Shown in pieces: positions 35,681 to 62,450 of a DNA stretch of 64,000 bases (positions are counted from its first letter, which is position 1; every line of letters starts with the position of its first letter). Both the position numbers and the translations under genes were made by a program. The stretch spans positions 87,733,049-87,797,048 of the forward strand of contig CM053156.1 of the NCBI GenBank assembly GCA_028571685.1, in the 5' to 3' direction. This DNA is from Heterohyrax brucei. Its lineage: Eukaryota; Chordata; Mammalia; Hyracoidea; Procaviidae. A model generated the notes under the pieces. It was not told the origin of the DNA and searched no databases. It saw only the letters and a program-made list of their open reading frames with translations.

Positions 35681-36225
35681 TCTTGAAGAAATCCAAAACC
35701 ATACCCAGGGATGACTGTGTGGGGCTGTGACCTGGACAGTGACCAGGGCGTCATCAGCATGGCCCACGTTGGGTTCAGTACTCCACTGCTGCCATCTTGG
35801 AATTCTTAGTGATTTTCAACAGCGGGCCCCCTTTTCATTGGTACCAGGCTCAGTGAGTGACGTCATTGGTCCTGGCAGGACAATACGGCAAGTGCTGCCA
35901 AGGGAAGTGACTTCTAGACTTCTTAGTCACAGGAGTTCTGCCTGTCCCTGGAGCAGTGTCCAGAACTGGCCTCTGTTCTCCTGTGCTTCTGGAAGTTTCC
36001 TTCACGAGCACCCTCTGCTTGTGGCATCTCCCCACTTCCTTCGTGATGTCTCTGTAAGGCACGGTGCAATGAGAGCTTCGGGAACAAAGTTAGTGCCAGC
36101 CTTTCTCAGAGCTTTGACATGAGACGGAGCTCACCCCAGCCTTCACACAAACCACACGTTACTGGAAAAGTAAATTATCTTTCTTTTCCTTGAGAATATG
36201 TGATAGGAGCTGCGTTACAATCCTT
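35681..36225. other. Unique non-coding sequence
   Basis: The plus frame 35727-36122 lacks splice-site support. Nothing else was recognised. Confidence 0.4.
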
Positions 36226-36560
36226 GATGAGAATATATACCCAGAACTTGTAATCAGAAGAGACATGTTACCTGTAAAAAACTAAAGAACCCTAGGGCCC
36301 ACTTCTGCTCTGAAATCTACTTTGCATTTTGTTTTTTAGCCCATACTAGTCCATCAAGTCCCATCTCTGCCTTCTGTGTTTATTAGCAGGTGGGCATGGC
36401 TCTGGCCCCGAGGGGGCCTTCGTAATAGTGGTGCACGTCTAAGCCTCTCTTGCAGGTAGGTGGTGTTCAGTGTGCAGAAATGGGTCCTCACATGGAGGGG
36501 GATATATTCTGAGATAGATTAATAATATTTTTAAAAATAGAATTCTTTTATTACTTTTTA
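36226..36560 (+). repeat. Isolated unit related to the 41.3-53.5 kb array
   Basis: The stretch 36375-36535 aligns with 41565-41740: 'tgtgtttattag', then 'cttcgtaatag(t)' against 'cttccgtaataat', then 'cttgcaggta' against 'ttcacaggta', then 'ttctgagatagattaataa' against 'atttgaggtaaaatagag'. It lies 5 kb left of the array, and an L1 and SINEs lie between. Confidence 0.5.
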
Positions 36561-38030: not shown

Positions 38031-39055
38031 TTGTTTTAGCACAGTGATGTTGAAAATGTCCTGAGCTGATGGGAAGGATATAAGATCCTGCTGTCCTTCC
38101 TGGCCAGCTGTCCACCTCTGCATAGGGTAGCCTCCTGAGTCCAGTGAAATTCCTCGTGGGTCCCTGCCTCCTTCCAGGCCTGTCAGACATCGCTCCGTAG
38201 TCAGGGGGTTCTCATGAGGTGGCTGCCCTCTCCACACGACCACCACAAGGTGGGTGTCTGTACCCTGCCCAGACAGCTGGCCTCTTGGACCAAGCATTCC
38301 TTTTCATCCTCTCTCTGTTTTCTTCTGTCGCTTCTGCCAGGTAGGGCAGGAGAGAGGAAGGTATGTAGGACGTTCTTCCTGGCTTGTTCCTCCTGTCCCT
38401 TCAGGGGTCTCTTTCACTGCGGGCTTAGGAACATTGTGCCCTCAGGTTAGTGGGAAAGAGGTGTTTCTGGTGGGGAAAACAGTCTACTCTTATCCTTCTC
38501 TGAAGTACATGCTGTTTTTATCAATCAAGGCCCAGGTTTAAAAAGAGAAGAAATGGGATTTATTCGTTTTTCCCCTCGCTTAAAAAAGTTATTGCGGGAG
38601 AAGGGTGGAGCAGCACAAAATTAGCATTTAGAAAATGTTTCCAAACCCTCGCTGGCTGGAGTCTGGCCGCCTGGCTCAGCACTGTGAGAGGCGTTGCTAC
38701 GTGACGTCCATTTTGGTTGCTACCGTCCACCTCACGCCCTTTTGTCTCTTCTGAATTCCTCAGAGGGCAGGAGCCTCTGGGGAGGGCACCTGGGTACCTG
38801 CTCGGCTGCTAACCCAGCGTTCGTGGCTTCATGTCCACCCAGGAGGCACCTCAGGCCACAGCCTTGGCCATCCATGTGGCCATCCATGTGATGTCCAGAG
38901 GCTCAGCCGTCAAAAACCCCGTGAAGCACAGTTGTACCCTGACACACGACTCTGTGGCAGCATGGCTGGCACGGCTAGCCTAGGGCTTCCCCCTAGGAAG
39001 AACCTCATGATGACTGGTTCTCCTTGGCCTTCTTTCCTGGTGATGGTGGGTTTGG
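38031..39055. other. Unique non-coding sequence
   Basis: No exon or repeat was recognised beyond the small frames at 38214-38541. Confidence 0.4.
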
Positions 39056-40510: not shown

Positions 40511-41339
40511 AGCATCACATCACCCTAACTCAGCTCTGGACCCCACAGCCACCCCAGGTGGACAGCAGAGCATGCCTGGCACTGGGGCACTAGGAGGGTC
40601 CCATGCTAACCAGTCAACCACATAAAAACTTTCCTAAGCACATTCTGTCCCCAAACCAGCTTCCCTGTCCCCTCCACCCCAAGGCCAGGAGCCCAATTTC
40701 ACATATAAAAATATAAGATACCCAGTTAAAGTTGAATTTCAGATGAACATTTTTTTAATCATGAGTATATTCCAAGTATTTCATGGGATAGACTTACACT
40801 AAAAATAATTATTTACTTATTTACTTGCTTAGCTGAAATTGAGGTAGAACGGGCATCCTGTGTCTTGTCCGGGTACCAGCCCTTCCCAAGGCAAAATCTC
40901 TAAGGCCTTTGACTGCCCTCTCTGGCCCAGCTTAAAAATTCACCCTCAACATTCTTTGAAGTCAGGTTTCACCTCTCAGTCTTGGTCCTTTGGGGGTTCC
41001 TGTTCATCCTGGTGGAGTCTGTCTGGGGCCTTTCTTACAGTTGGGCTAGTTTCTGTTGTTTTTTAAACATATAATCTGTTCCCTTTCCAGGGGGATGGAA
41101 AGCTAGTCCCTGTCCATCAGGCCATCTGGATCCAACATCCCTGGAGTTGGCTCCTTTTGATCTCTGTCTGTCTGTCTCTCTCTCCACTTTTTGGGCTTCA
41201 GTCAGCTGTTTCTCCTCTAGAGACCGACCGTGACAGCCCTCAGAGGAGAGACGGGGTGGAGATGATGTTGGGGTTGTTTGGGGCCTTCACCTATTTCTTC
41301 TCCAACAAGGAAAGGCCATACTGTTCTTTCTTCTTTTGA
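40511..41339. other. Unique non-coding sequence
   Basis: Nothing recognisable, apart from AT-rich 40700-40840. No exon. Confidence 0.4.
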
Positions 41340-42861
41340 AAAGCTAAAAAATGGAGGGAGAAGGGTTAATGTTCTTTTCTCTTTGAAATTGGTGAGGGAA
41401 AAAGCATCAAAGCCTGAATCACCCTGGCTTAGAAAATGCTCTCAGAAGCTGTAATCAGTGGAGAGACTCGATCTTATACACAGGGTACATTTCAACACTA
41501 AAACCCATTTTAAGTTGTATTATCCACCTCATTCTATTTTGTCTCCTCTCATTCTCTTCCCCTTGTGTTTATTAGAGGCTGGATATGGGTTTCTTTCCCT
41601 GAGAGAACTTCCGTAATAATGAAGTATACTCGACAGTCTTTCACAGGTAATACAGGACTGAAAGGTGTTCTGTCAGGAAAATGGGTAGCCTCGTTTTCCT
41701 CTGTGTGAGAGAAATATTTGAGGTAAAATAGAGTAATAATTTCTCAAAATGGAAGTTTTGAAGGTCATGTTTGCCTAGAGAAGTGGGAAACTCCTCGAAG
41801 CCGTAGAAGGTGCAAGGGAGATTGTAATTACCACTGCGTACCGGTCAGGCGCCCCGTCGTCTCTCCTGCTTTGCCAGCAGTCTTGGGGTTCGAGCCTCTT
41901 TGTGGTTTTCTCATGTTTTCTCAACACTGACTTCTTTGATTTTCATGGGGTGCCTGAGCGAGGGAACTCCCCAGAACCCACTCAGCAGAGCCCACCCTCC
42001 CTCTTTGATGGGTGTCTCTGCAGTTCTCTCATTATTTTTCTGTCAGCGTTCGTAGAAAGAGTGTAAGCTACTTTATTTCCCGACCACTATGTTACTGTAC
42101 TTGACAGTCATTTAAGCTGTGTATTCTTTTTTCTGATTTGACTCTAATGATAACGTATTTTTTAAAAAAGGTAAGTGTAGAAGATTTCCTGAATAAATTT
42201 TGGCTGACAGCTGCTACAGGTACAACTTTCCACCCTTCTCTCATCTCTTTTTGTGTGACCTGGGTTCTCCACACTTCATTTGGTTCTGGTTTCTTTCTGT
42301 GAGTACCATAGGTGACCTGTGACTGGGATGGTAGACTGTCTCACCGAGCTATCTCGTTTTGACTTGGCTGTCCTTCATTCAAGAAAGAAAGTAAATAGCT
42401 GAGCAGTGTGAGAGACCCCTCAGCCGCCGAGAGCCTCCCCCAGGAGTGGAGTTAGGTAATTGCCTTAAAAGGGCAGCATTTCTAAAGATTGTCTTCTCAA
42501 CCCTCTCGTGTCCAGTTTGTTTATTTATTTATTTGTTCTTATGCTGCCCCATCCAGAACCCTCTTGGCTTCTGTGTGTCGTTCGTGCAAATGTATGTGTC
42601 TGGCTCAAGATTCATTTCCCATCCCATCCTCTGTGGTTTCTCCAGGAGGAATTTTCTGGATGTACGCTATTGTTTATGTACTTGTCTGCAGTCAAGAGTT
42701 AAAGGCCACCTCCTGCTTTCTCTCATATCCTCAAGTCTTTTCCTGTATTGCTTTAGGACTGCGGAACGGACCCCTTTTGTGGACGGCAGGGTGGAAGTCT
42801 TCAGGAAAGATGGAGAGATTTTTCAAGGGGTGGACTTTTTTGATATTTTCAATAGTTGTTT

Positions 42862-43070
42862 GGAGCCCCTGAGTGGTACCAACTGTCATCCCTTTGCTTG
42901 GCTGTGAGCCAAAAGATTGGCAGTTGGCATCTAGAGGTACTCCGGGAGAGGGGCCTGGTAGTCTGCTCCCAAGAGATCAGCTGTTGAAAACCCCAGCTCC
43001 GCTCTGATGCCCATGGGTCGCCAGGAGTCAGACTCAACTGGATGGCAACTGTTTGGGGTTTGTTTTAATA
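42862..43070 (+). mobile_element. AfroSINE (long variant) inserted in the array
   Basis: Starts 'tggagcccctgagtggtac', contains 'aaaagattggcagttggca' and ends 'ctcaactggatggcaactg' before 'tttggggtttg'. Removing it brings array units at 42791 and 43728 to a spacing near 0.73 kb. Confidence 0.85.
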
Positions 43071-44033
43071 TGTCAGTCTCTGTCCTTGTAAAGTAAATCT
43101 AGAAATCAGATTTCCTGATTAGTTTGGTAGGTATCAAAAATACTTCTACAACAGCATTCTTTCTCTTTTTTTAATTCCCTCTCTTCTTGGAATTTGGCAC
43201 TGTGGTTCTTACCTGTACTTTGGGTACGCTTTGGCTTTGCGCGTAACTGAGCTTTTCAATTTTCAACGCTCTCTGAGCAGACCGATTACTTTGGGAGGAA
43301 GGTAAAAGCTGTCACTCTGAGTCGAAGAGACAGTTTCTGAAGTAAAAATTCCCATAATTCAAGTGTCACATCAGAAGAGATAGCATTTCTAAAGCTGGAG
43401 TGAGGACAAAAGAAAAACTTCGTGGACTCTGCAAGAATCGGATCTGTCTCCTCTTATTACTCTCCCTTTGTGACTGGTGGCTCAGTCCAACTCCCGTGTG
43501 ACTGTGGAGTTCAAGTCTCTTTGGTCTCCTGATAACAAAGCAGAACTAACTCTTGGTATTTTATTCCCAGCTCTGGCTGAAAGAATTCATGATTGTTCCC
43601 CTTTATTTTTCTGTCAGAACCCTTAGAAACCACATAGAGGCTTTTTGCTCAAAAAAGAAAAAAAGAAAAATATACTTGTGTTGCATTGTTCCAGGAGAGC
43701 AGTGACAGCAGCCCTCTTTCTTTTGAGGTGGAAATCTTGAGAAAAGATGAAGCCAAGTTGAAAGCATTTGAATGGTGGCATAGTCCACCCCGTTTTCTTT
43801 CAGCATAAGGAAAACCATGCTTATGAAATAAGCCAGAAAGCTTACATTCTTGAGTAAATTTTGGTAGGAAAGTTTTAAGAGGGTATTTTTGGCCAGCTTT
43901 TATGCTTTTCCCTTTATCTCAATCCCCTGGCTCTTAAATATTATTGAAGAAATACTCTTCAGTTCTGTACATAAGCAAGATTCTACATTACAGAACTGAA
44001 ATTCTCCAGTCTGGCTTCTCCACCACTTATTGT

Positions 44034-44113
44034 TCAGGAGAAATGTCTGAGTGGGAGAAAGTTTTGAATTTTCTAAACATTTGCCTTTCATCTCCAAAGC
44101 AAAAAAGAAAAGA
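44034..44113 (-). ncRNA. Weak C/D-snoRNA-like block, copy 1
   Basis: Block S on the minus strand reads 'agatgaaagg' near 44094 and a D-like 'ctga' at 44037-44034, about 60 nt apart. See the array and the 44834-44912 entry. Speculative. Confidence 0.1.
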
Positions 44114-44235
44114 GGACGGCAAAGGTAGGTGTTCCAAAGTGGAAAAAAAAAGAAAATTACCTAAGCATCACAGGAGAGAGAACATCAAAATATGTCATAA
44201 AACAGAAAAGTATCCCCACATCCTCTTTTCCTGAT

Positions 44236-44400
44236 CTTTTTTTTTTTTTTTTTTTTGGTAAAATAAAGTTTTATGAATCTGCAGATTAGGTTCCAGGGAG
44301 GAGCTGAGTGCTTCCCCACCATCTCTGTCTTCACCAAGACCGGCCTGCGGTGGTTTTCCTGGGTGGCTGGAAGACCAGAGTGGATGAGGCCAGCTCCATT
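44236..44400 (-). pseudogene. Retrocopy 3' end of an unidentified mRNA
   Basis: A 20-base poly(T) at 44238-44257 is followed by sequence that on the minus strand ends 'gattcataaaactttattt' before poly(A), so it looks like a processed transcript tail. The upstream minus sequence is GC-rich ('ccaccgcaggccggtcttg') and unlike its neighbours. It interrupts the array. Gene of origin not recognised. Confidence 0.5.
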
Positions 44401-44833
44401 ATTTTCTTTCTTGGCTCTGGTTTGAGTTTAACATCCCATTTTTTCTCCCATCAAGATTAATGAGGGAGAGAAGAGAAGATCTTGCTTCCCAGCTATTATC
44501 ACTGAAATGGATCAATTTCTTCTTTTTAAGGATGCAAATCTTGAGGGAAAATGAGCTCTCTTGAAAATAAGACCTCAATTATTTTTCAAGAAATGGACTG
44601 TCTTTTACAGACTCATTTAGTAATGAGAAACATTGAAAATAATAATTCAAAGAGTAGATACTCTTGATTTAATCCTGGCATTATAGATTTCAAATAGTAT
44701 TTTCAATAATTGTGTTATTTTTCTCTCTCTGTTCATCTCATGTCCCCATTTACTCTGTAAATTTTAGGTCCGTGCTGGTCTGGGCACAGACTTTTAACTG
44801 AAATGATTTTAAACATGTCTTTCCACTAAACAT

Positions 44834-44912
44834 CTTTCAGGGAAAAAAAGACAAAATGACCAACAACCTCTGAGAGGGAAGTCTCTTCAAGTTGATTGCC
44901 TTTCATCAAAGA
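44834..44912 (-). ncRNA. Weak C/D-snoRNA-like candidate (array block S)
   Basis: On the minus strand a C-box-like 'ttgatga' (44907-44901) and a D-box-like 'ctga' (44840-44837) are about 70 nt apart, and bases outside them ('tctt' and 'aaga') can pair to form a short terminal stem. Box C/D snoRNAs have this layout. The same two boxes recur at 44034-44094, 45522-45575 and 50070-50127 with changes in the C box, and the D box is lost at about 46347. No C'/D' boxes or guide sequence are evident. Confidence 0.2.
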
Positions 44913-46547
44913 AATAGGGAAGACCTGAGAGCCTCTATGGAAAGCAGTTTCTGAAATAAAACATATGATTACTTAAAAGAGACAGACTTTCAGGAAATTG
45001 CATTAGGATAGAGAAATACTCTGGGAAGTAGCTAGATTTTGATAAGTGTATTTTTCCATTCCTCTGGTGGGTCCTTCCACCACGTCTCTCTGAGGAAGGA
45101 GTCTGAGGTTTGCCACCGTGTTGGCTTTCCACAGGCGGTTCTGTGAGGTGGCATTTCCGTGCTTTTTCAGACGGCCCATATCTGACTCTCCAACGTGATT
45201 GCTCCTGTGGTGGGATTCATAACCCACCTCTTCTGTGGCGTTCACCACAATACTAATCAACGTGTAATTAAGGTCCTAATTTTCTTCTCTTCAGCTGCGC
45301 TGTGCACTACATCAACTACATAGAACTGAGCTTCTTAAGTTGTTAACAATAAACCTGCATTTAATTCAAGAAAGGGAGGGGGTACTTTCATTCTTTTTCT
45401 TTGTCTCATTTGCTTTCCTTCTCACTCAAATCTCTTCTTTGAATTCTGTGCATGACTAAGCTCTTAAAGACTGAAATACTTTAACTGGATTTTTTTTTTT
45501 TTTCCTTTCCTCTAACATGGTTCAGGTAAAATTCCTCTGGAGATAAAGTTATCAAAGTAACTGTCTTTCATTGAAAAAACAGAAAAGTAAAGAGAGCTGC
45601 TCTGACAGGTACATTCTGAGGTAAAAATGTACCGAATGGCTCTGAAGAGCTAGTAGACTGTCTAAATGTTACATAAGGGTGGTGACATAATTGTCTGAAA
45701 TTGAGTAGATCTGAAATTTTTTCTTTTTAGCCTTTGAATTTAGTCTGCCATGAGTGAACAGGGGGAGGAAAAGGTGGGGAGCAGAATCCTTCGGTGTTTC
45801 TGGTGCCCCATCCCTTCTGTCACAAATCACCTCAAAATATCTTCCAAGGAGAAACAAAATGGCAGCCCGAACTCCAGAATCTCCTCAACAGCTGCCTCCC
45901 TTCCCGCTCTCTCACTTGAGCTAATAGCCCTGCATCATTATTTTCCTGTCAGAATTAATAGAGAAATATTCTTTTCCTAAAGCCATTAGTTAAGTGATAC
46001 TGCTTAAAAATTGCTGAAACAAGAGAACACCTCCTTCTTCAGGGTGTAAATCCTAAGACATGATGAAGCAATTGCTTAAACACATCAGTTACATTCCAAA
46101 GTCTGAACTTTTCCTCTACAATTTTCATTTACCATTAAGAAAGTTTGGAAGTAATGAGCCATAAAGTAGATTCTCTTGACTCAATTTTGGCACTGAAGAA
46201 TTCCAGCCACATTAACAGGTTTTTTTTTCTTTCATCATTTAGGTTTCCGTCTCCCCGCCACTTGTCCTCTCTTTCCTTCAGAGCATTCTCATTGTCTGGG
46301 TTGTTTAGGCGTGGGATGAAACTTCTAACTTAGTGAAAGATTTTAGGGTACTTTCACACTAAATATGTTTTTCTGGAGAAAATGGCAAGTGAAGTGTTCT
46401 CAAACTGATTGCCTTTCATCAAAGGAAGAGAAGAGAAATGAGAACCACAGAGAAAAGTGCCTTCTGAAAAAAAGAGTTTCAAAAATGATTACTTAGAAGA
46501 GGCAAAGTTTCAAAGAACAATTAGGATAGTACAGAAATTACTGCAGA

Positions 46548-47222
46548 CAAGTTGTTGTTACGAGACGCTGTTGAGTCTGCCTTTGACTACAGAGACCACA
46601 TGTGACAGTGCAGAACTGTCTCAGCAGGTTTTCTTGGCTGTAATTTTTCTTTTTAATGAAACTATGCTCACCTTCCTTTTCTGAATTATTTCTCCCCCGA
46701 CATAAACTCATTACCCCCCAAGCTTCCCATCTAACCTTTCAAGTTGCCGTTCTCAATTCCATTGTGTGTAGATACATTTTGTTTTTATCTTTTTTAAGAA
46801 ATCTTACTTTAGTTGAAGGTTTACAGAGCAAGCTAGCTTCTCATAAAACAGTTAAATACGTCTTGTTTTATGACCTTGGCTGTCAACCCCACAACATGCC
46901 AACACTCTTCCTTTTTAACCTTGGATTCCCCATTGTCAGCTTTTCTGTTCCATCCTTGCCCCTGGGTAGGTGTGTTCCTATAGTCTTGTTTTGTTTCATG
47001 GGCCTGAACGAACAATCTCTGGCCAAAGGGTGAACTTTAGGAGAGACTTTATTAATGAGTTAAAGGGGTTTCCAGGGGCCACATTCTTACGGTTTCTCCG
47101 CTCTCTGTCACCTGGCTGTAATTTTGTGGGGGCATGTTGCTGGGTCTTTCTCCTGTGTGGGTTTAACTGCTAGGCTTTTGGTTTCCATCTGCATGCTTAA
47201 CCATCACACCACTAGGGCTCCC
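46548..47222 (-). mobile_element. AfroSINE (reverse) split by an L1 3' UTR insertion
   Basis: The SINE 5' half in reverse runs 46551-46647 and its 3' half 47113-47222 ('gtttaactgctaggctttt' ... 'accactagggctccc'). Between them is L1 3' UTR-like sequence (46650-47110, minus, T-rich start). The 13-bp 'tggctgtaatttt' occurs at 46635-46647 and at 47113-47125, a perfect target-site duplication. Confidence 0.8.
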
Positions 47223-47961
47223 TTCCAGTTGTAGTTAGGAATGGAGGAATATGTGTTTTCTTCCTTCTTCTCGTCTTATCTCTGCCCGAGAAACTAGCCT
47301 GTAGTTACTGTGAGTATCAGAACCCACCTTCCTCTGTTAGCAGTCTGCTCTGCCTCTCCAGTGAAGGAATAACGTGTCAGCACTTCCTGCTCGTGCCTGG
47401 GCACACTCTAGTGTTCTCCCCCATTATTTTCAGTGTGAATTTTAGAGCCAATATCATTATTTGTCTTTTTTCTTTCAAAACAGTAAAAGAATGCCATGTT
47501 AATGGTAACAAAGAAAGCTACACAGACACATCCTAGGAAGACCACACAATTTTCAGCCCACTGCCCACCGAGGCCACCAGAGTTAGGTTGGGACACATCT
47601 TTCCGTGCCTTTCTCCGTGTACGTACAAATGTAGACAGACAAACGGATCTTATCACATGTAGTAATCCATACCTCTTTTCTTCTGAATGTATCTCATGCA
47701 AAATTCTAGACCAATGGAGAGTATGGTTTGATCAGTGGCACGATGTGCGTACACAGCATTTACTTCCTGAACTCTTCTCCTGTGGGGGGCAGTCCTGTTG
47801 CTTCCTGTTGTGTCCCCTAGTGTGACCATTGCCACATTGAACATTCTTGTGCAGTCTCCCAAGAGATGATTGTTGGGTCAGTGGTTTTATAATTATATAT
47901 TTTATTTTATACAATGCTACTGGGTTACTTTTCAAAAAGAAGTTTAATAGGTAAAAAGAAG

Positions 47962-48165
47962 TCAGCTACTGCTGAGTTGAGTGTGACTCATGGTGACCCA
48001 TGTGTCATGGAACCCATGAACTGGTCTCCATAGAGTTTTCAGCGGTGGATTTTTTTCAGAAGCAATTCACTAGGGCTCTCTTCCAAGTTACCTCTGGGTG
48101 GACTTGAACTCCCACCCTGAGCTCAGCAGCCAAGAGTGTTTAGCATTTGCTCTACAGACAGGTTT
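47962..48165 (-). mobile_element. AfroSINE (reverse) in the array
   Basis: Contains 'actgctgagttgagtgtga', 'ggtggacttgaactcccac' and 'gtttagcatttgctctaca' on the plus strand. Confidence 0.75.
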
Positions 48166-49159
48166 ATTCTCTGGTCAGTCTTCTTCTAACCATATCTTAT
48201 AAAAGAAACTTTTCTTTAGAGAAAATGAAGATCTCAGTGAAGCCTCAAGTTTTTCAATCTGGTTGGTACACATGAGTTTATTAAATGACAAGTGGCCAAG
48301 TGGCCGTGAGCTGACCTCTCATTGGTCAGATTCAGGCCACAGATATGTTAGCTGGCAGGTTTTTTTTCTTTTTAATGTGATGTTAATTAGTCAGCAATGT
48401 TTAAAAACACATAAAATCCAGATTTCTGGACCCTCCATCCTTCTTGGCCAGCACTGGCCAGCCCTGAGGGTCACATGCCCCCGTCAGGCCCGGCATGCTC
48501 CCGGTTCACAGTGGCCTCTGCCGTCCCGGTCGCTTCCCTCACTCCCATGGTCTGCCTCACGCCCGGAGCACCGGCATTTGTGAGCTATGGTTTCATTTCA
48601 GCAGTGGCTTCTCGGCCTCGGGGCTCCTGACCCTGGGGGCCGGACCCTTCTCTGTGGTGGGAGGGCTCGGGGGGCTGTCCTGTGTGGTGCAGCAGGTTTG
48701 GCAGCATCCCTCACCTCTACCCCCTTAATGTCAGTGCCCCTACCAACTGACAAAACCAGAATTGGCTCCAGATGCCTCCCCCCGTTGAAAGCCCCTGATT
48801 TCAGCAAGGCCACCGGACAGATTTTCCACAGTACATTTTGAGATCAAGTTCTCAGAGCCTGTTCCTGGGTGGTTTTCACCGTTTCTCTTCACTTCCTTGG
48901 CCCTCGTGTTCCACTTTATGAAGGAAAACTGTTATATTGTGCGCTCAACCAAACTTTAAAGTCACTGAAATGTTTCACACCAGCCCCATTCACCTAATTT
49001 GGAGAAAATACCTAAGAGAGAACTCATCACGACTGCTTTCATTCTCAGGGACAGAAATGCAGAGAAGGTTACCATTACAGGTGGTTTCTGAAGTAAAAGC
49101 TTTACCTAGTTACACTCACACGTAAAAGGTAACATCTCTAGATGTTGTGTAAAGACAGC

Positions 49160-49400
49160 TGAATAAACCCCTGGAATAACGGGAGGCGGTGCCCTGGCTC
49201 CCGTCTGTGTCCCTCAGGGGTCTCTCTCCCCGGTTCGCCCCGGGGCCTCGGGCCAGCTGGCCTCCGACTCGGGCTCCCCCCTCCCCCTACTGCCACCCCC
49301 AGTCCTTCTCGTCGGGTATCTCTGGGGTGTCTGGGGAAACCGGAACCCGGGAAGCCGTCTCTCCAGGGCCCTCTGCTCTCTCCTGCTCTGGCGGGAGCTA
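49160..49400. promoter_or_regulatory. CpG-rich block inside the array
   Basis: About 240 bp with many CpG dinucleotides, for example 'cccggttcgccccgg', 'ctcgggccagctgg', 'cgtcggg' and 'ccggaacccgggaagccg', while most of the array is AT-rich and CpG-poor. It replaces the usual spacer between blocks T and P. The short open frames (49138-49425 on the minus strand) follow from GC content. Confidence 0.3.
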
Positions 49401-49683
49401 ATGACCTGCCTCCGTCTTTCTCCATCAGAATTACTAGAAAACGATTCGTTTTTTTTCCCTAGAGCTGCTAGTTACGTCACAGTGTTCTGAAGTTGCTCAA
49501 ACAGAATGATGTCACCTTCACTCATGGCTCTAAATCTTGAGGAAAGATGGGACGTTATTTCAGATGCACCAGTAACGGTCCTGAGGGACTGAGATGCGTG
49601 TGCGGTTCTCACTTAGCATCAAGGAAACTCTTAAGAGATTGATGCCTGGGCTTGCCAGATTCCTTCTTGCTGTTTAACATCTT

Positions 49684-49935
49684 GAATAGTCTGTTTGTCT
49701 GTCTGTCTCTTTATCTTATCTATCCATGCATCCATCCGTCCATCTGCCTCTCTCTAGAACTCTCTCTCTCATCTATTTGTCTGTCTTTCTCTGTATCCGT
49801 CTTATCTATGTGTCTGTCTTACCCATCTGTCTGTCTGTCTTGCTGTCTTTCTATGTATCTGTCAATCTGTCTTTCTGTCTTATCTGTCTGTCTTTCTTTC
49901 CGTCTGCCTTTCTATCTCTATGTATCTGTCTGTAA
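49684..49935. repeat. (tctg)n-rich microsatellite
   Basis: Interrupted 'tctgtctgtct' and 'tctatc' repeats for about 250 bp. The plus frames at 49652-50014 are low-complexity translations of it. Confidence 0.92.
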
Positions 49936-50934
49936 AACTATCTTCTTTTTTCTCTTCCATGATTTCTTAATCTTATTTTTCCTCTGTACTGTAAAGGCTT
50001 ACATTGCTTTCTAGACATGATGAAATTTTAAAGCGAGACTGTGGACACCGCTCTGCCCTAAACATAGTTTCAGGTAGAATGTTTTCTGTGAGGGGAGTTA
50101 TTCTTGTCCTGATTGTCTTTCACCAAAGAAATAGAAAAGCGATGGAAAGTGGGAAGAAAAGAGGTTACTGAAAAAAGATTGAGTTAGGATGCCTGCAAGG
50201 CAAGCTTCCAGAATTGCATCAGGACGGCCCACCAACACCCAAGGCCATGCCTAGTGCTGGACGAATCACTGTCGGACTCCTGCCGCTCTGCTCCAGAGCA
50301 TCTGATTGGAATCGGTGCCCGATGCCCCCCGGCCTGTTTGCCTGGGAGGAATAATGATGTTTTTCTTCCATCATTTTTAGCCATAATTTTGTCCCCTAAA
50401 GAGACTTTATAAACCAGATGTGTAATAGGATTGCAGAAACAAATGAAGTTACTATTAAAAGATTTTAGTGTGATGCCCGGTGTGAAATAGGGACTTTAAA
50501 ATGTTGGCTGACTGATGATATGAAGGAGTGTCTGAGACCTATCAGAGAGAAAATCCCGGGCAGCAGGTGCCCCATCTGGACGACTGGCTAGTGCGCAGGT
50601 TTCCTCTGTTCCAGAATGCTTGGGTCGCCCTGCTGTGTTCCAAACTGGGAGGCAGGCTTGGGCTCCATCTCACGCCCTCAGCGTCCTCATTCATGGTATG
50701 TAGCACATTTGCTTGGGGAATATTTTTTGTGTGATCATTTGCCTACTGAGTGTGTCTTTGCTTGGACTGTAATTTCCACAAGGCCACGACTGCCTCCTTC
50801 ACCCTGGAACAAATCCCTGTGTTTAACATCATGTCTGGCACAGAGTAACTGCTCAATAAAGACTTGAGTTAACGAGCAGATAGCAGTCACCAAGTGACTG
50901 CTTTTATACTTAATTGCCAGTTTTCCTGTGAAAT

Positions 50935-51665
50935 GCTTTTTTCTTTTATAGAATTTATTTTTTTGTCATTGATGAGAGCATACACCAGTTCAAGACTTTT
51001 TACAAGTACAATTCAGCAAACTGACGACACTCCTCAAATTGGGCAGCTGTCTCACCCTGCTTTTTCAGATTGTCCCTTTGCCGTCCATAGATACCGTCTG
51101 CACTCTACCCTCCTTTTCAAATCATCCCTTCCCCTTCCCCATTCACACACACCGTCTGCATTCTAAGGTTCTTATCTAATCTTAACTGGTTGATGTTGAC
51201 AACTTGATTTCATAATGGTAGTTCTTTAGAAGGTACTGTGCTCTAAGCAGATGTTCTTTACTAGCCAAGCTCAGTTATTTTTTGGTTTTAAGAAGACTTC
51301 AGTGGCTATTTTTGGTTTAAGGTTTCAAGATTTTCTCAGGACAGTATTTCAGGGGTTCATCCAGCCTTCATGACTCCAGAAAGCCTGGATTTGACAGAAG
51401 TTTGAAATTCTGTGCTGTATTTCTCCCCTTTGATCATGATTCTCTGTAGAATCTTTGATCAAAATTTTTAGTAATGATTGCCAGGCACCATCTAGTTCTT
51501 CTGGTCTCACGGCAGAGGAGGTGATTGTTCATAGAGGCAACTGTCCCTGCAGTCTATTTCCTCCTCCTGTTCCTGGCAAGTAATGGCAGATTGTGACTTC
51601 TAGTGTATTTGTGTTCTTCACTGGCAGTGATGTCTCTAAATAATTTCATCTCAGATCATTGAATA
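50935..51665 (-). mobile_element. LINE 3' UTR-like remnant in the array
   Basis: Contains the 'ttgccaggcaccatctagt' box also found in the L1 3' UTR copies at 2.9 kb and 37.06 kb, and a T-rich left end at 50935-50970 consistent with a minus-strand tail. Confidence 0.6.
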
Positions 51666-51829
51666 AGCTAGAAGATTGCTCTTACACTCTTGTTTACATT
51701 TGTGTTTTGCGTTAAAGATCAGGGAGGTGGCCTCACTGTAGCCCTTCTTTATAGTTCAGAATCTGTGAGATTCAAATTAACAGAGAGTTTTGGTACCTAA
51801 GAACAATCATGAAGATGGTATGGGACAGG

Positions 51830-53215
51830 CACGTTTTGTCCTGCTGTTCATGAGGTCAGTCGTTATGGGTAGGAATCGACTCAGCAGCACGTAAAACAAC
51901 AACAAAGAAATGTCTCAAATGACTTCATGTTCAGATAATATTTGAGTAATAATCGCACCCGAGTAAAATTTTGCTGAGCCAAGCCAAGTGCCGTCGAGTC
52001 AGATCCGACTCATGGCGACCTGTAATTCAAAAATGGTTGCAGCAGCACATCATCAGTGGACTGCCAGCAACTCGAGCGGGATTCAGAAGAGGGCGTGGGG
52101 TGAAGGCTATCACTGCTGGTGTCAGATGGACCTTGGCTGAAGGTAGAGAACATGAGAAAGGTGTTTGTCTGTGTGTTGCTGCCTGCGCAAAGGCATTCAA
52201 CTCTGCAGCTCACAGCAAATTGTAGATGATGCTGTGAAGAATAGGAGTTCAAGTACAGTCACTTGTGCTCATGTGGAACCTGTCACAGACCAAGAGGGGG
52301 TCCTTTGAACTGAGCATGGGGGTACAGCACGGTTTCAAAATCAGAAAGGTGTGTGTCAGCATTGTATCCCTCCCTTTACTTTACTAACTCACTGTGTGTG
52401 CTGAGCAGATAATCTGAAAAACTGGATTACATGAAGCAGAACAGGGCATTAGGGTTGGAGGAAGAGTAATCTTAAGTGTGCAGATGGTACAACGTTGCTT
52501 GTTGCAAGACAAGAAGATTTGAAGCACCTCCTGATGAAGATCCAAGTCTTCAGTACAGTGTGCATCTCAGCCTGAAGGAAACAAAAATGCTCACGAGGAC
52601 AACACCGAGGAAAAAGATGAAGTTATCAAAGCTTTCATTTTACTTGGATCCCCAATCAACATCCATGGAAGCAGCAGTCAAGAAATCAAACGATGTATTG
52701 CACTGAGCAAGTCTTCTGCAAAAGACCTCTTTCGAGTGTTAAAAGGCACAGGCATGACTTTGAGGATTAAGATGCACCTGACCCAGCCCGCCACGCCGTC
52801 GAGTCGGTATTTTCAGTGGGCTCATATGCATGAGAAAGCTGGACAATAAATAGGGAAGACCCAAGACGAATTGATGCCTTTGAATTACTTTGTTGGTGAA
52901 GAGTATGAAATATATCATAGTTTACCAGAAGAACAAACAAATCGGTATCGGGAGAAGTAGAGCCAGAATGTTTCTTCAAAGCTAGGATGGCGAGACTTTG
53001 TCTCACACACAGCAGACAATTATCTGGAGGGACTGGTCCTTGGAGATGGGCTTGATGCTCAGTACGGTAGACGGTCAATGAAAAAGAAGACTGTCAATGA
53101 GACGGCTTGACACGGTGGTTCTGACAGAGCAGAGATGGTGAGGAGGGGACAAGACTGGGTCGGGTTTCATTCAGCTGTATGGAAGGTTGTTAGGGGGCTG
53201 GACGGACCCTAACAA
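51830..53215 (+). mobile_element. RTE LINE copy in two parts, with SINE scraps
   Basis: 51830-51905 is an RTE tail ('aatcgactcagcagcacgt'). 51975-52015 is an AfroSINE-like start ('gccaagtgccgtcgagtca'). 52016-53215 is RTE reverse transcriptase text ('SSHFILLGSPINIHGSSSQ'-like at about 52640) to a tail near 53190. A short SINE scrap 'cgccacgccgtcgagtcgg' sits at 52787-52806. Frames are broken throughout. Confidence 0.75.
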
Positions 53216-53500
53216 CAACAATATGGCTTTCTCAGGATGGTCAGACCTGAAACTGCTATGGGCCATTAAATAGTCTATTCTTCTAAGCATGGTTTGGCAA
53301 TTATTTCTGAGGAAAATCAGGAAAAAAACGTAGCCATGAATCAAGAGAAGAACATAAGGGCACAGAGAACTGAGACAGTTTTTGTTTAATAAAATTCAAA
53401 TAATTGTGTAAAGGTGGCGAATCTCCCAAAATTGCATTAAGACAGTGGGATTTGTAATTTCTGAATATGTAGGAAGTGATTCATAGAGCATGATTTTCAC

Positions 53501-55991: not shown

Positions 55992-56081
55992 CAGTGTGAC
56001 TGGTCACCCAGTGTGACTGGTCACCCAGTGTGACTGGTCACCCAGTGTGACTGGTCACCCAGTGTGACTGGTCACCCAGTG
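55992..56081. repeat. 17-bp minisatellite, five exact copies
   Basis: The unit 'cagtgtgactggtcacc' occurs five times without change (55992, 56009, 56026, 56043, 56060), followed by a partial copy. Confidence 0.97.
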
Positions 56082-59899: not shown

Positions 59900-60087
59900 G
59901 TGTATATAAATGTGCCTGCACCCTTTTAGGTCTGAATCCACATGGAGAGTCATCTGGCGCCACCTTGGAACCATCTCATTGCTGTGGGAACGAAGAGAAG
60001 AAGGAGGACGATGGCAGAGGAGTCTCAGTGACACTTGCTCCCAGTACAAGTCCAGGAAGCGTCAGGGAAACAGACGTGGCTGTGAAG
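59900..60087 (+). CDS. Probable internal coding exon of the unidentified 3' gene
   Basis: The sequence 'attctgtaatttcag' at 59885-59899 is a good splice acceptor, and 'gtggga' after AAG at 60087 is a plausible donor (GT at 60088-60089). The frame is open throughout. It starts by completing a codon with two bases (GT) and ends with a complete codon, so it can join the phase-0 start of the terminal exon at 61602. The encoded text is Ser/Glu/Lys-rich and includes 'GNEEKKEDDGRGVSVTL'. A second acceptor, 'cccttttag' ending at 59929, would give a 10-codon-shorter exon in the same frame, so the start is uncertain. I do not recognise the protein. Confidence 0.45.
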
Positions 60088-60339
60088 GTGGGAACTGTGG
60101 TGTCACATGTCTAGACCGATGGATGCTACTCCTGACGTTGTTATCAAGTGAGCAAAACTCACTCTGCTCACCTCCCGAAGCTTCAGGCTCCCCAAGCCCA
60201 TTAGGCAAACAAGCATTGTCTGCTGCGAAAACAGCTGCTTGGGCTGGAAAGGCCTTGGGCTGATCCCTGGCGGTTAATTGAAAACCCTGTCGTTAATTCA
60301 CGGTCATACAGAGTAGATTGGCTGTCCTGTTTTCTTTCA

Positions 60340-60600
60340 GCTTTCTAATTTTTAAAACTATTATGTGTTGTTGTTGAGAATATGCACCACAGAACATACA
60401 GCAATTCAGCGGTTCCTACTGTATAATTCAGTGTCCTTGTTCAGGGCCTGCCTGCTTTCTTCCCACTGTGCAGCCCGTCTCACCCTCCCTGCCCCCCGGC
60501 GGTTCCTCTCCCATTAACGTGACCGCACTGCTCCCTAAGTTTCTTACCTGGTCTGTTGAGTTGCTGTGGTCAGTCTGATCCCATAGACTGTATTTTTACT
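60340..60600. mobile_element. LINE 3' UTR-like remnant
   Basis: Contains 'agcggttcctactgtataa' and 'cctccctgccccccggcgg', related to the 22.8 and 46.7 kb remnants. It lies in the intron between the two proposed exons. Confidence 0.45.
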
Positions 60601-60889
60601 CAAATGGTGTTTGCCTTCTGTTTGTTTCCCAGCCTCTTGGAGGAGGGAGTGGTCGGCAAACAGGTGTAGGAGGTATTTGCGTAAAAATACAGTTCTGTGA
60701 AACTTTGGAAAGCTGAAATGTGAGTAAGACAGAAATCTGCCAGAGAAGGGAAACTTCTGAAATTTTTTCCACTAAAAGAGTGATAGAGCAATGGCAAGAC
60801 TGCACCCTTCCCGAGACGGAAAACGTTCCAGACCCGGAGAAGCAAGGCAGTGAGTTGAGTCCCTGCTCACAGGCTTCAGTGGAGACAGT

Positions 60890-61240
60890 TCTTGAAAGAG
60901 CCCAGCACTCAAGGCAGGCACTCTCTCCTGGTATGCTGAACTACAGCTTGGTTTCAAGAAGCCTCTGGGGGATGAGATCCAGAAGCCGCTGCCAGCTGAG
61001 ATCACCCCCCAGTAGATGGTGGGGTCACAAGTCGAAATACTCGTCAACACTAAAGTGTTCCTCTAGACCACACTCTGGAAATGCCAACCTAGACTGACGC
61101 AGTGGCTGCCACAGTGTGCTCTGGCATGGGGATGACTCTGGGGATGGCACAGGATTGGGCAGTGGGCTGGCTGGTTGCACACAGAGTTGCCATGAGTTGG
61201 AACTGACTGAAGGGCACCTCACAGCAACAGCAATCTAGAG
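60890..61240 (+). mobile_element. RTE LINE 3' fragment
   Basis: Ends with 'agttgccatgagttggaac' + 'tgactgaagggcacctc', the RTE tail. It also lies in the proposed intron. Confidence 0.6.
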
Positions 61241-61601
61241 AAAACTTTTAATACATAGTACTGTCAAATAGCAGATTTGCCTCCCTGACAGCGGTGGCTT
61301 AAAACAGAGAGCTCAGGACTAGGGGAAGGACTGAGTGGTTTTGCTTTAACAAAGGCTGATAAAAGCACCCAGCAGTCTCAGCAGTGTGTTCTGCAGCAGC
61401 ATGGGGCTTCACTCAGGTTAATGCACCAATTAGTTATTAATGGAAATTTATTGAGGACATCAGATTGGAGTTCACGAGTGGTAAACAGTCATTAAGACCC
61501 CGAGACCTTGTATTCATCGAGAACCGTATTTCTGCCCATAGTTTTTTTGGTACCAATTAACCTTTTATTCCCCATTTCTTTTCCTTTGCACTTTGCTGCA
61601 G

Positions 61602-62450
61602 GATCTCTCTCCATCTGCCGGTGAACTTGGTAACTGTTCTTCCCAACTGTCTCCGCAGTCTGACCCCTGTCTGGCAGCAAGTGAGGACCACTTTCTGCTA
61701 CGTGGCAAAGGTCTTGGTGGTGGATCTCTTGAGAGCCAGCTTCTGCTCCCCACGGAGCACCTCTCAGCAGACCCTACGCTGGGCATTTTTGCAGATGCTC
61801 AGGAGCCCTCTTCCTCTGACTTCAAAGGAACCTTCCCCCGCCATGTCTTCGCTACCTCTGTGGCTGCCACTGGTTCTTCTCAAGGGGTTAGAGCAGACCA
61901 CGTGACCCCAGGACTTCCCAGTGTGGAGCCACAAGGCCGTAGCTGGGGAGCAGAGGAGACTCGGCCACGAAATCCTCCCGGCAGCAAGGCTACAGCAGGA
62001 GGCGCGTTTCCATCATCCTTACCAGAGGAACAGTCATGTGGACAAAGGATGCCAGCTATAGCCCCACTGGGGTCAGTGGAGAAAGCTCAACTTGAAATGC
62101 CAGCTTCAGGACAAAGTCACACTAATTCACACCAAGACGAAGGGAGTCACAAAGTATTTTCTCCTTCTGGGGGCCAGCACAAGTGTGGAGACAAGGTCAT
62201 CCCTTGCTGCCCTTTGGGTCACGAAAGTGAGCAAGGTCAGGTAGCCGGATCCCCTGCTCTGAAGGATTGTATAGGGGGTCCTTGCAACCCTGGGCAGCCT
62301 GCAGACGTCCCCGGGCAGCCTGCAGACGTCCCCGAAGCTACTTCTAAAACCATCAAGAAGAGGAGTCTGGAAGGAATGAGGAAACAGACTCGACTGGAAT
62401 TCAGTGACAGCAGTAGTGATGACGAAGACCGACTGGTTATAGAAATATGA
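61602..62450 (+). CDS. Terminal coding exon of an unidentified, Ser/Pro-rich nuclear-type protein
   Basis: The start is chosen from the splice acceptor: a pyrimidine-rich tract from 61562, then 'ctttgctgcag' ending at 61601. The exon begins at codon GAT in phase 0 and runs open for 282 codons to TGA at 62448-62450. The protein is rich in Ser, Pro, Gly, Gln and Glu and probably disordered, with no recognised domain. Near the end are 'TSKTIKKRSLEGMRKQTRLEF' in pieces (basic), an acidic Ser patch 'SDSSSDDED' and the final 'RLVIEI'. The hydrophobic tail next to an acidic/Ser patch resembles a SUMO-interaction motif (inference). An exact 21-bp duplication lies inside. It is the only long host-type coding exon in the window. 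The gene family is not identified, and the rest of the protein is upstream. Confidence 0.75.
   Translation, partial: DLSPSAGELGNCSSQLSPQSDPCLAASEDHFLLRGKGLGGGSLESQLLLPTEHLSADPTLGIFADAQEPSSSDFKGTFPRHVFATSVAATGSSQGVRADHVTPGLPSVEPQGRSWGAEETRPRNPPGSKATAGGAFPSSLPEEQSCGQRMPAIAPLGSVEKAQLEMPASGQSHTNSHQDEGSHKVFSPSGGQHKCGDKVIPCCPLGHESEQGQVAGSPALKDCIGGPCNPGQPADVPGQPADVPEATSKTIKKRSLEGMRKQTRLEFSDSSSDDEDRLVIEI
62292..62333 (+). repeat. Exact tandem duplication of 21 bp in the coding exon
   Basis: Two identical 21-bp copies (62292-62312, 62313-62333) encode GQPADVP twice in frame. Confidence 0.98.

Follow-up and report, generated by a model that had tools for sequence, protein, structure and literature searches.

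An old and apparently single-locus tandem duplication in a predicted ZNF831 intron

Locus and tandem order of the units

The 64-kb window analysed here (the whole stretch of 64,000 nucleotides, 87.73-87.80 Mb of its contig, CM053156.1) contains a series of diverged repeat units of roughly 0.75 kb at about 42-53 kb; all positions below are window positions, negative ones lying upstream. If the gene prediction holds, this array sits within a large intron of a gene that is probably ZNF831 and adjoins a probable EDN3. Upstream, an open stretch of 1296 codons (-44.1 to -40.3 kb) gave C2H2 zinc-finger matches (best E-value 4.5e-7, all under the curated cut-offs), and from its sequence we take it to be ZNF831. 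Downstream lies an endothelin exon at 113,718-113,999 (Pfam Endothelin, E 2e-17), followed by a second putative EDN3 piece at 134,817-135,107 without a Pfam match; its sequence and human gene order lead us to assume that the endothelin gene is EDN3. The host gene's predicted 3' exons (Table 1), which have open frames and borders that look like splice sites by eye, showed no Pfam match either and are presumably those of ZNF831, by synteny. With last exons predicted at ~59.9, 60.8 and 61.6-62.45 kb, the array would therefore be intronic and in the orientation of the coding strand. SLX4IP with JAG1 downstream, another candidate for the host gene, was dropped because inspection by eye of 80 kb of translated downstream sequence revealed none of it, and the endothelin exon was found.

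An earlier note on this DNA had described short blocks, two of them denoted S and T, that recur in the same order and direction, and had proposed a self-dotplot as a check. Both self-comparison and a profile built from two units confirmed the recurrence. Comparing 36-56 kb with itself by blastn yielded off-diagonal plus-strand matches at ~42-51 kb, among them 44519-45017 with 46031-46538 (units U4 and U6; 60% over 535 columns, E 3e-24), 45861-46142 with 49335-49626 (E 4e-13) and 44869-45008 with 50085-50224 (E 2e-7). The two-unit profile, built from 44400-45100 and 45900-46640 alone and searched in the 224-kb neighbourhood, recovered three further units through four strong same-strand matches, at 49382-49631 (E 2e-16), 43564-44187 (E 4e-16), 50047-50234 (E 9e-13) and 45395-45692 (E 4e-10), and gave weaker ones at 43330-43511 (E 1e-4) and 48874-49104 (E 0.004). 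Its best match outside 42-51 kb had E 0.0065, at -13,913 on the minus strand, and concerned the tail of U6. After iteration the same list became sharper, 42744-42826 was gained and the flank match at -13,913 reached E 2e-10, the E-values of the iterated profile being partly circular.

Models of the 3' half and the 5' half of the unit, made from sequence only, found copies on which they had not been trained at 53278-53447 (E 1.3e-5), 42716-42838 (E 4e-5) and 41546-41789 (E 0.0026); their matches in 160 kb of flanks had E-values of 0.009, 0.013, 0.12 and 0.46. The first of these copies agrees with the array end near 53,500 given in the earlier note. On direct reading, blocks S and T are spaced by ~815/665/848 bp and by 1614 bp per two units, within ~2 bp of the 813/667/846 and 1614/667/848 noted before. 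Motif listing placed S-like blocks at 44894, 46407 and 50111 and T-like blocks at 43334, 49085 and 53304, of which the one at 53304 carries 3 substitutions; being set to report best matches, the listing passes over further blocks, among them a T at 44948 that differs by one substitution. The units thus follow each other head to tail, ~0.67-0.85 kb apart, in one direction and with a roughly regular period. Tandem Repeats Finder, whose longest period is 500 bp, listed no such array. The head-to-tail copying of this intron stretch is real and very old, and it comprises at least nine units (U1-U9) across 41,964-53,447.

Unit map and inserted repeats

Unit borders were cut partly by eye from the alignment of units. 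A further unit, U0 or B3, is likely at 41,330-41,963, and weaker traces at 36.1 and 38.5 kb (B1 and B2) may extend the array to a length of up to 17 kb. In the profile searches B1, B2 and B3 form a related trio running in the same direction as the units. B1 matches B3 (36222-36547 to 41423-41759, 59%, E 6e-8 in the blastn self-comparison), and the independent support for B2 is a single 46-column match (76%, E 0.33). The extension to 36 kb hangs on B3, because B1 matches B3 and B3 matches the units, with B1 and B2 themselves at chance level against the units. The start at 41,340 proposed earlier may be too late in view of the related pieces upstream.

Shuffle counts (Table 1) have to be read against control stretches, which gave 158/200 at 20.0 kb, 2/200 at 57.0 kb, 10/200 at 35.4-36.1 kb and 57/200 at 53.5-54 kb; counts of a few in 200 are therefore weak evidence by themselves. 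In an earlier shuffle test with nhmmer most pieces, B3 included, went unscored, and only the 3' part of U9 was clear (0/200).

Table 1. Array units, possible upstream copies and predicted host-gene exons in the window; n/200 is the number of 200 shuffles that reached the piece's match to the main units
Feature	Position	Strand	Evidence
B1, far-diverged upstream copy (possible)	36100..36560	+	profile match 36141-36556; related to 41333-41770; 176/200
B2, partial upstream copy (possible)	38530..38800	+	profile match 38537-38792, a piece within the seed alignment; 36/200
U0/B3, diverged unit (likely)	41330..41963	+	profile match 41333-41770; model R2 match 41546-41789, E 0.0026; 0/200
U1, shortened	41964..42500	+	0/200; 41964-42056 to 45869-45962, 64%, E 0.9
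U2, broken by a dispersed repeat at ~42881-43065	42700..43535	+	3' part E 1e-4; 42716-42838 E 4e-5
U3	43536..44235	+	E 4e-16 against the two-unit model
U4	44380..45110	+	E 3e-24 to U6 (self-comparison)
U5, 5' half strongly diverged	45111..45875	+	3' half E 4e-10; 5' half 5/200
U6, last part (~46545-46640) apparently an insert like a short interspersed nuclear element (SINE), by eye and flank match	45876..46640	+	self-comparison
U7, pieces 47300-47520, 48190-48260 and 48860-49200	47300..49200	+	3' piece E 0.004 before iteration; 5' piece 0/200; middle by alignment only
U8, split by a TCTG-rich simple repeat at 49691-49935	49335..50290	+	E 2e-16 and 9e-13
U9, 5' trace 50291-50560 and 3' part 53278-53447	50291..53447	+	3' part E 1.3e-5; 5' trace 1/200
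Predicted host-gene 3' exons, ~59930-60088, ~60758-60929 and last ~61604-62450 with stop	59930..62450	+	open frames; splice-site-like borders by eye

Units U2, U7, U8 and U9 are each interrupted by inserts. The insert in U2 has 7 flank matches, and the 2.7-kb insert that separates the halves of U9 has 33 and holds an RTE-like fragment, a label given by eye. Among the eight units in the core alignment pairwise identity ranged from 0.35 to 0.66, far from the near-identical monomers of a homogenised satellite. A unit tree (window 42330-50235) set U4/U6/U8 apart from U3/U5/U7 with a support of only 31-60; this alternating grouping would be a hint of a former two-unit period, and a dimeric higher-order structure was dropped as the tree support was weak.

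Related copies, satellites and RNA signals

In the neighbourhood test (blastn, E < 1e-3, 206 kb around the array, outside 36.0-53.5 kb) none of the 11 unit pieces matched, whereas seven of the nine spacers did, one of the seven being a simple repeat. The 11 pieces include no part of U9, none of the 5' pieces from U2, U7 and U8, and not the SINE-like U6 tail, and the positive control with the RTE-like fragment covers the neighbourhood only. A 638-base consensus without the U6 tail, searched in the whole 3.49-Gb genome at E-values up to 10, found four places and no others, namely U6, U4, the 5' part of U8, and U3 (65% identity over ~560 bp). Genome searches with U4, U6, U3 and U0 likewise returned array members alone, each missing most of the other known units. 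To the sensitivity of these searches no copy was found elsewhere, linked or unlinked, and by sequence the array looks like a single-locus one.

These searches bear directly on the possibility that the units are independent insertions, in the same direction, of one dispersed element, the case that the earlier note had named as refuting a tandem array; it was looked for and, within search sensitivity, not found. The flank match of the U6 tail (E 0.0065, or 2e-10 after iteration) would speak for such insertions, but this tail is SINE-like and not common to the units, and genome searches could miss very old copies. With the unit body lacking copies elsewhere and most spacers matching flank repeats, we regard independent insertion as very unlikely.

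A fragment of a once larger satellite, for example of an ancestor of the sirenian centromeric satellite TMAsat, would also leave tandem units at one place. According to PMC8421680, the TMAsat monomer measures ~684 bp and occurs mostly as an alternation of two parts, and tandem sequences that resemble TMAsat but diverge from it were reported at a few places in elephants and hyraxes. The array shares this range of monomer length, and the weak separation of U4/U6/U8 from U3/U5/U7 could recall the two-part form. However, the likeness is one of monomer length, the array here is single, intronic and not homogenised, and its consensus detected no other array in the genome. CENP-B-box-like sites (up to 2 mismatches) numbered 54 in the window against 74 expected; without an excess of this pattern a centromeric satellite was rejected, and descent from a larger satellite is very improbable. 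Closer parallels are local intronic tandem duplications and decayed low-copy satellite-like or macrosatellite-like arrays, which also consist of head-to-tail units at one locus and in one direction, later broken by repeats; here, the units are only ~35-66% identical in the core alignment and not homogenised. The array is apparently older than those usually catalogued. The titles and abstract beginnings of publications on ZNF831 tandem repeats or ancient intronic arrays mention no such array, which is not proof that it is unpublished.

The earlier note had further compared the array to clusters of small RNAs. Intronic tandem units of similar size do resemble SNORD115/SNORD116 and SNORD113/114, whose tandem units lie in a transcribed region, or placental microRNA clusters, but this is another locus, without a match to a small nucleolar RNA (snoRNA) family or a conserved RNA structure. 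No Rfam family reached its gathering score in the 64-kb window, and in 40-52 kb no family was listed for more than one unit among the 13 matches with E up to 10. With RNAalifold the 3' half gave no consensus structure, and the 5' half gave 8 weak pairs, of which one showed a two-sided change. In a shuffle-based scan of 1148 windows each, hairpins with z < -3 occupied 20 windows of the array and 14 of a control stretch (20.0-28.6 kb), and those with z < -4 two and three, respectively. With no snoRNA or microRNA hairpin recurring per unit in Rfam searches, consensus folding or hairpin scan, the analogy is not supported, and the SNORD or placental microRNA kind of cluster is very improbable here. 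An array of coding exons was rejected as well: a codon-usage scan of both strands of 224 kb gave 70 candidates, of which the three in the array were low-scoring, all on the minus strand and at unmatched places in the units. Alignment showed a splice-acceptor-like 'TTTTCTGTCAG' conserved in some units. Just upstream, at 40753-40805 on the minus strand, lies a match to mir-1302 that stays below threshold (36.2 bits against a gathering score of 62; E 0.0037); this family is said to derive from MER54 repeats.

Decay, age and surroundings of the array

The earlier note had left a choice between selected small elements within an old duplication series and the best-preserved residue of a decayed array. 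The duplication series stands, and for the 3' half of the unit, which contains S and T, decayed residue fits better than selection. We simulated neutral evolution on a star tree with indels, realigned the products by the same program and kept the replicates of matching identity. Of the eight aligned units, six entered this test (all but U1 and U2); at a mean identity of 0.52 their windowed conservation maxima were 0.688 in 16 columns and 0.660 in 30 columns. These were reached by 24/82 and 12/82 neutral replicates at a rate of 0.33, by 25/62 and 7/62 at 0.28, and by 14/46 and 3/46 at 0.38. When a 30-bp block evolved at a quarter of the rate (150 replicates per rate), 149-150 of 150 replicates attained the maxima at each rate, so that the test had power. 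The neutral simulations match the profile of the 3' half; the S/T pattern therefore needs no selection, and selected small blocks there are not supported. In the 5' half, tested with four of five aligned units, the 16-column maxima were not extreme under neutrality (16/69, 8/53 and 6/41 replicates). Weak constraint may still act, chiefly on the 5' half.

Another reading is that the units carry small regulatory elements, forming an enhancer array of ZNF831 or EDN3, and that selection has kept some blocks. The 18 bp of block S are identical between U4 and U6 and differ by 2 substitutions in U8, and the block contains an ATCAAAG core that may resemble the TCF/LEF motif. The unevenness of the 5' half is also like that from the slow-block simulations. 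Against this, the remaining five of the eight aligned units show a more altered S, and the conservation of the 3' half with S and T is ordinary under neutrality in a test with power. Human variants at ZNF831/20q13 are associated with blood pressure and pre-eclampsia, according to PMC7688949, and no result ties the array to them. An enhancer array is thus unlikely, and nothing found here shows any function of the copies. The bolder proposal that the array predates placental mammals and persists in the ZNF831 intron across many orders, the human one among them, as a regulatory cluster near EDN3 in the blood-pressure/pre-eclampsia locus, appears decidedly doubtful.

We put the probability at roughly three in four that the array is a tandem duplication of old date within a ZNF831 intron, apparently confined to a single locus, older than a repeat inserted in it and mostly in neutral decay. 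Under this reading a segment of ~0.75 kb of the large intron would have been duplicated head to tail into at least nine copies, perhaps twelve, the probable mechanism being several rounds of unequal exchange or replication slippage. Homogenisation would then have ceased, and the units would have gained substitutions, indels, insertions of dispersed repeats and a simple repeat. S and T may be the parts that by chance changed least, without detectable selection, and the neutrality presumed for the unit as a whole extends this view beyond the half containing them. An RTE-like copy lies inside the U9 insert, so the insertion postdates the array, provided that the weak 5' trace of U9 (1/200) is real. 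Five unit pairs had K values of 0.38-0.47 and two RTE-like copies in the same intron a K of 0.37, all from one aligner. The RTE-like family is perhaps restricted to Afrotheria; if so, the array could be as old as Afrotheria or older, with remnants expected in manatee and hyrax and perhaps in human. We infer that the array arose no later than the afrotherian or placental radiation.

Several observations weigh against this reading. The consensus search listed only four of the at least nine known units and missed U1, U2, U5, U7 and U9, so equally diverged copies elsewhere could escape it. On neutrality, an earlier simulation (80 replicates per rate) had at the matching rate ~6% of replicates reaching the 30-column maximum of the 3' half and 39% the 16-column one. 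The 16-column standard deviation of the 5' half was reached by only 2/69, 1/53 and 2/41 neutral replicates and by 91, 104 and 100 of 150 slow-block replicates. Allowing gamma site-rate variation in the 3' half gained 2.5 log-likelihood units, nominally significant in a likelihood-ratio test; the Bayesian information criterion was slightly worse with gamma (3539.2 vs 3538.7). As to age, other repeat pairs (SINE-like pieces) had K values of 0.43 and 0.20, which makes the repeat yardstick a rough one, local alignment lowers the K of diverged pairs, and the comparison covers one mammal genome.

The duplication is a clear case of a very old and apparently single-locus array that stays readable despite much sequence change, within an intron of a gene from a human blood-pressure locus. 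It also illustrates that drifting copies can mimic conserved small elements by eye, and that the two can be told apart by a control in which neutral sequences are simulated and realigned. If the array were found in other placental orders, it would offer paired paralogous and orthologous clocks for intronic DNA.

Other repeats accompany the array in the window and its surroundings. Between the array and the predicted last exons, a perfect 17-bp minisatellite at 55992-56081 (5.3 copies, 100% matches) is presumably young. At 1431-1948 a 44-bp unit occurs in ~12 copies (74% matches) with an L1-like motif; perhaps it is a tandemly amplified segment of a long interspersed nuclear element, a label given by eye. 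The large zinc-finger exon (L006:5856-9743) contains a run of degenerate ~10-residue repeats of the type CGDVKTPV, possibly a lineage-specific expansion in ZNF831.

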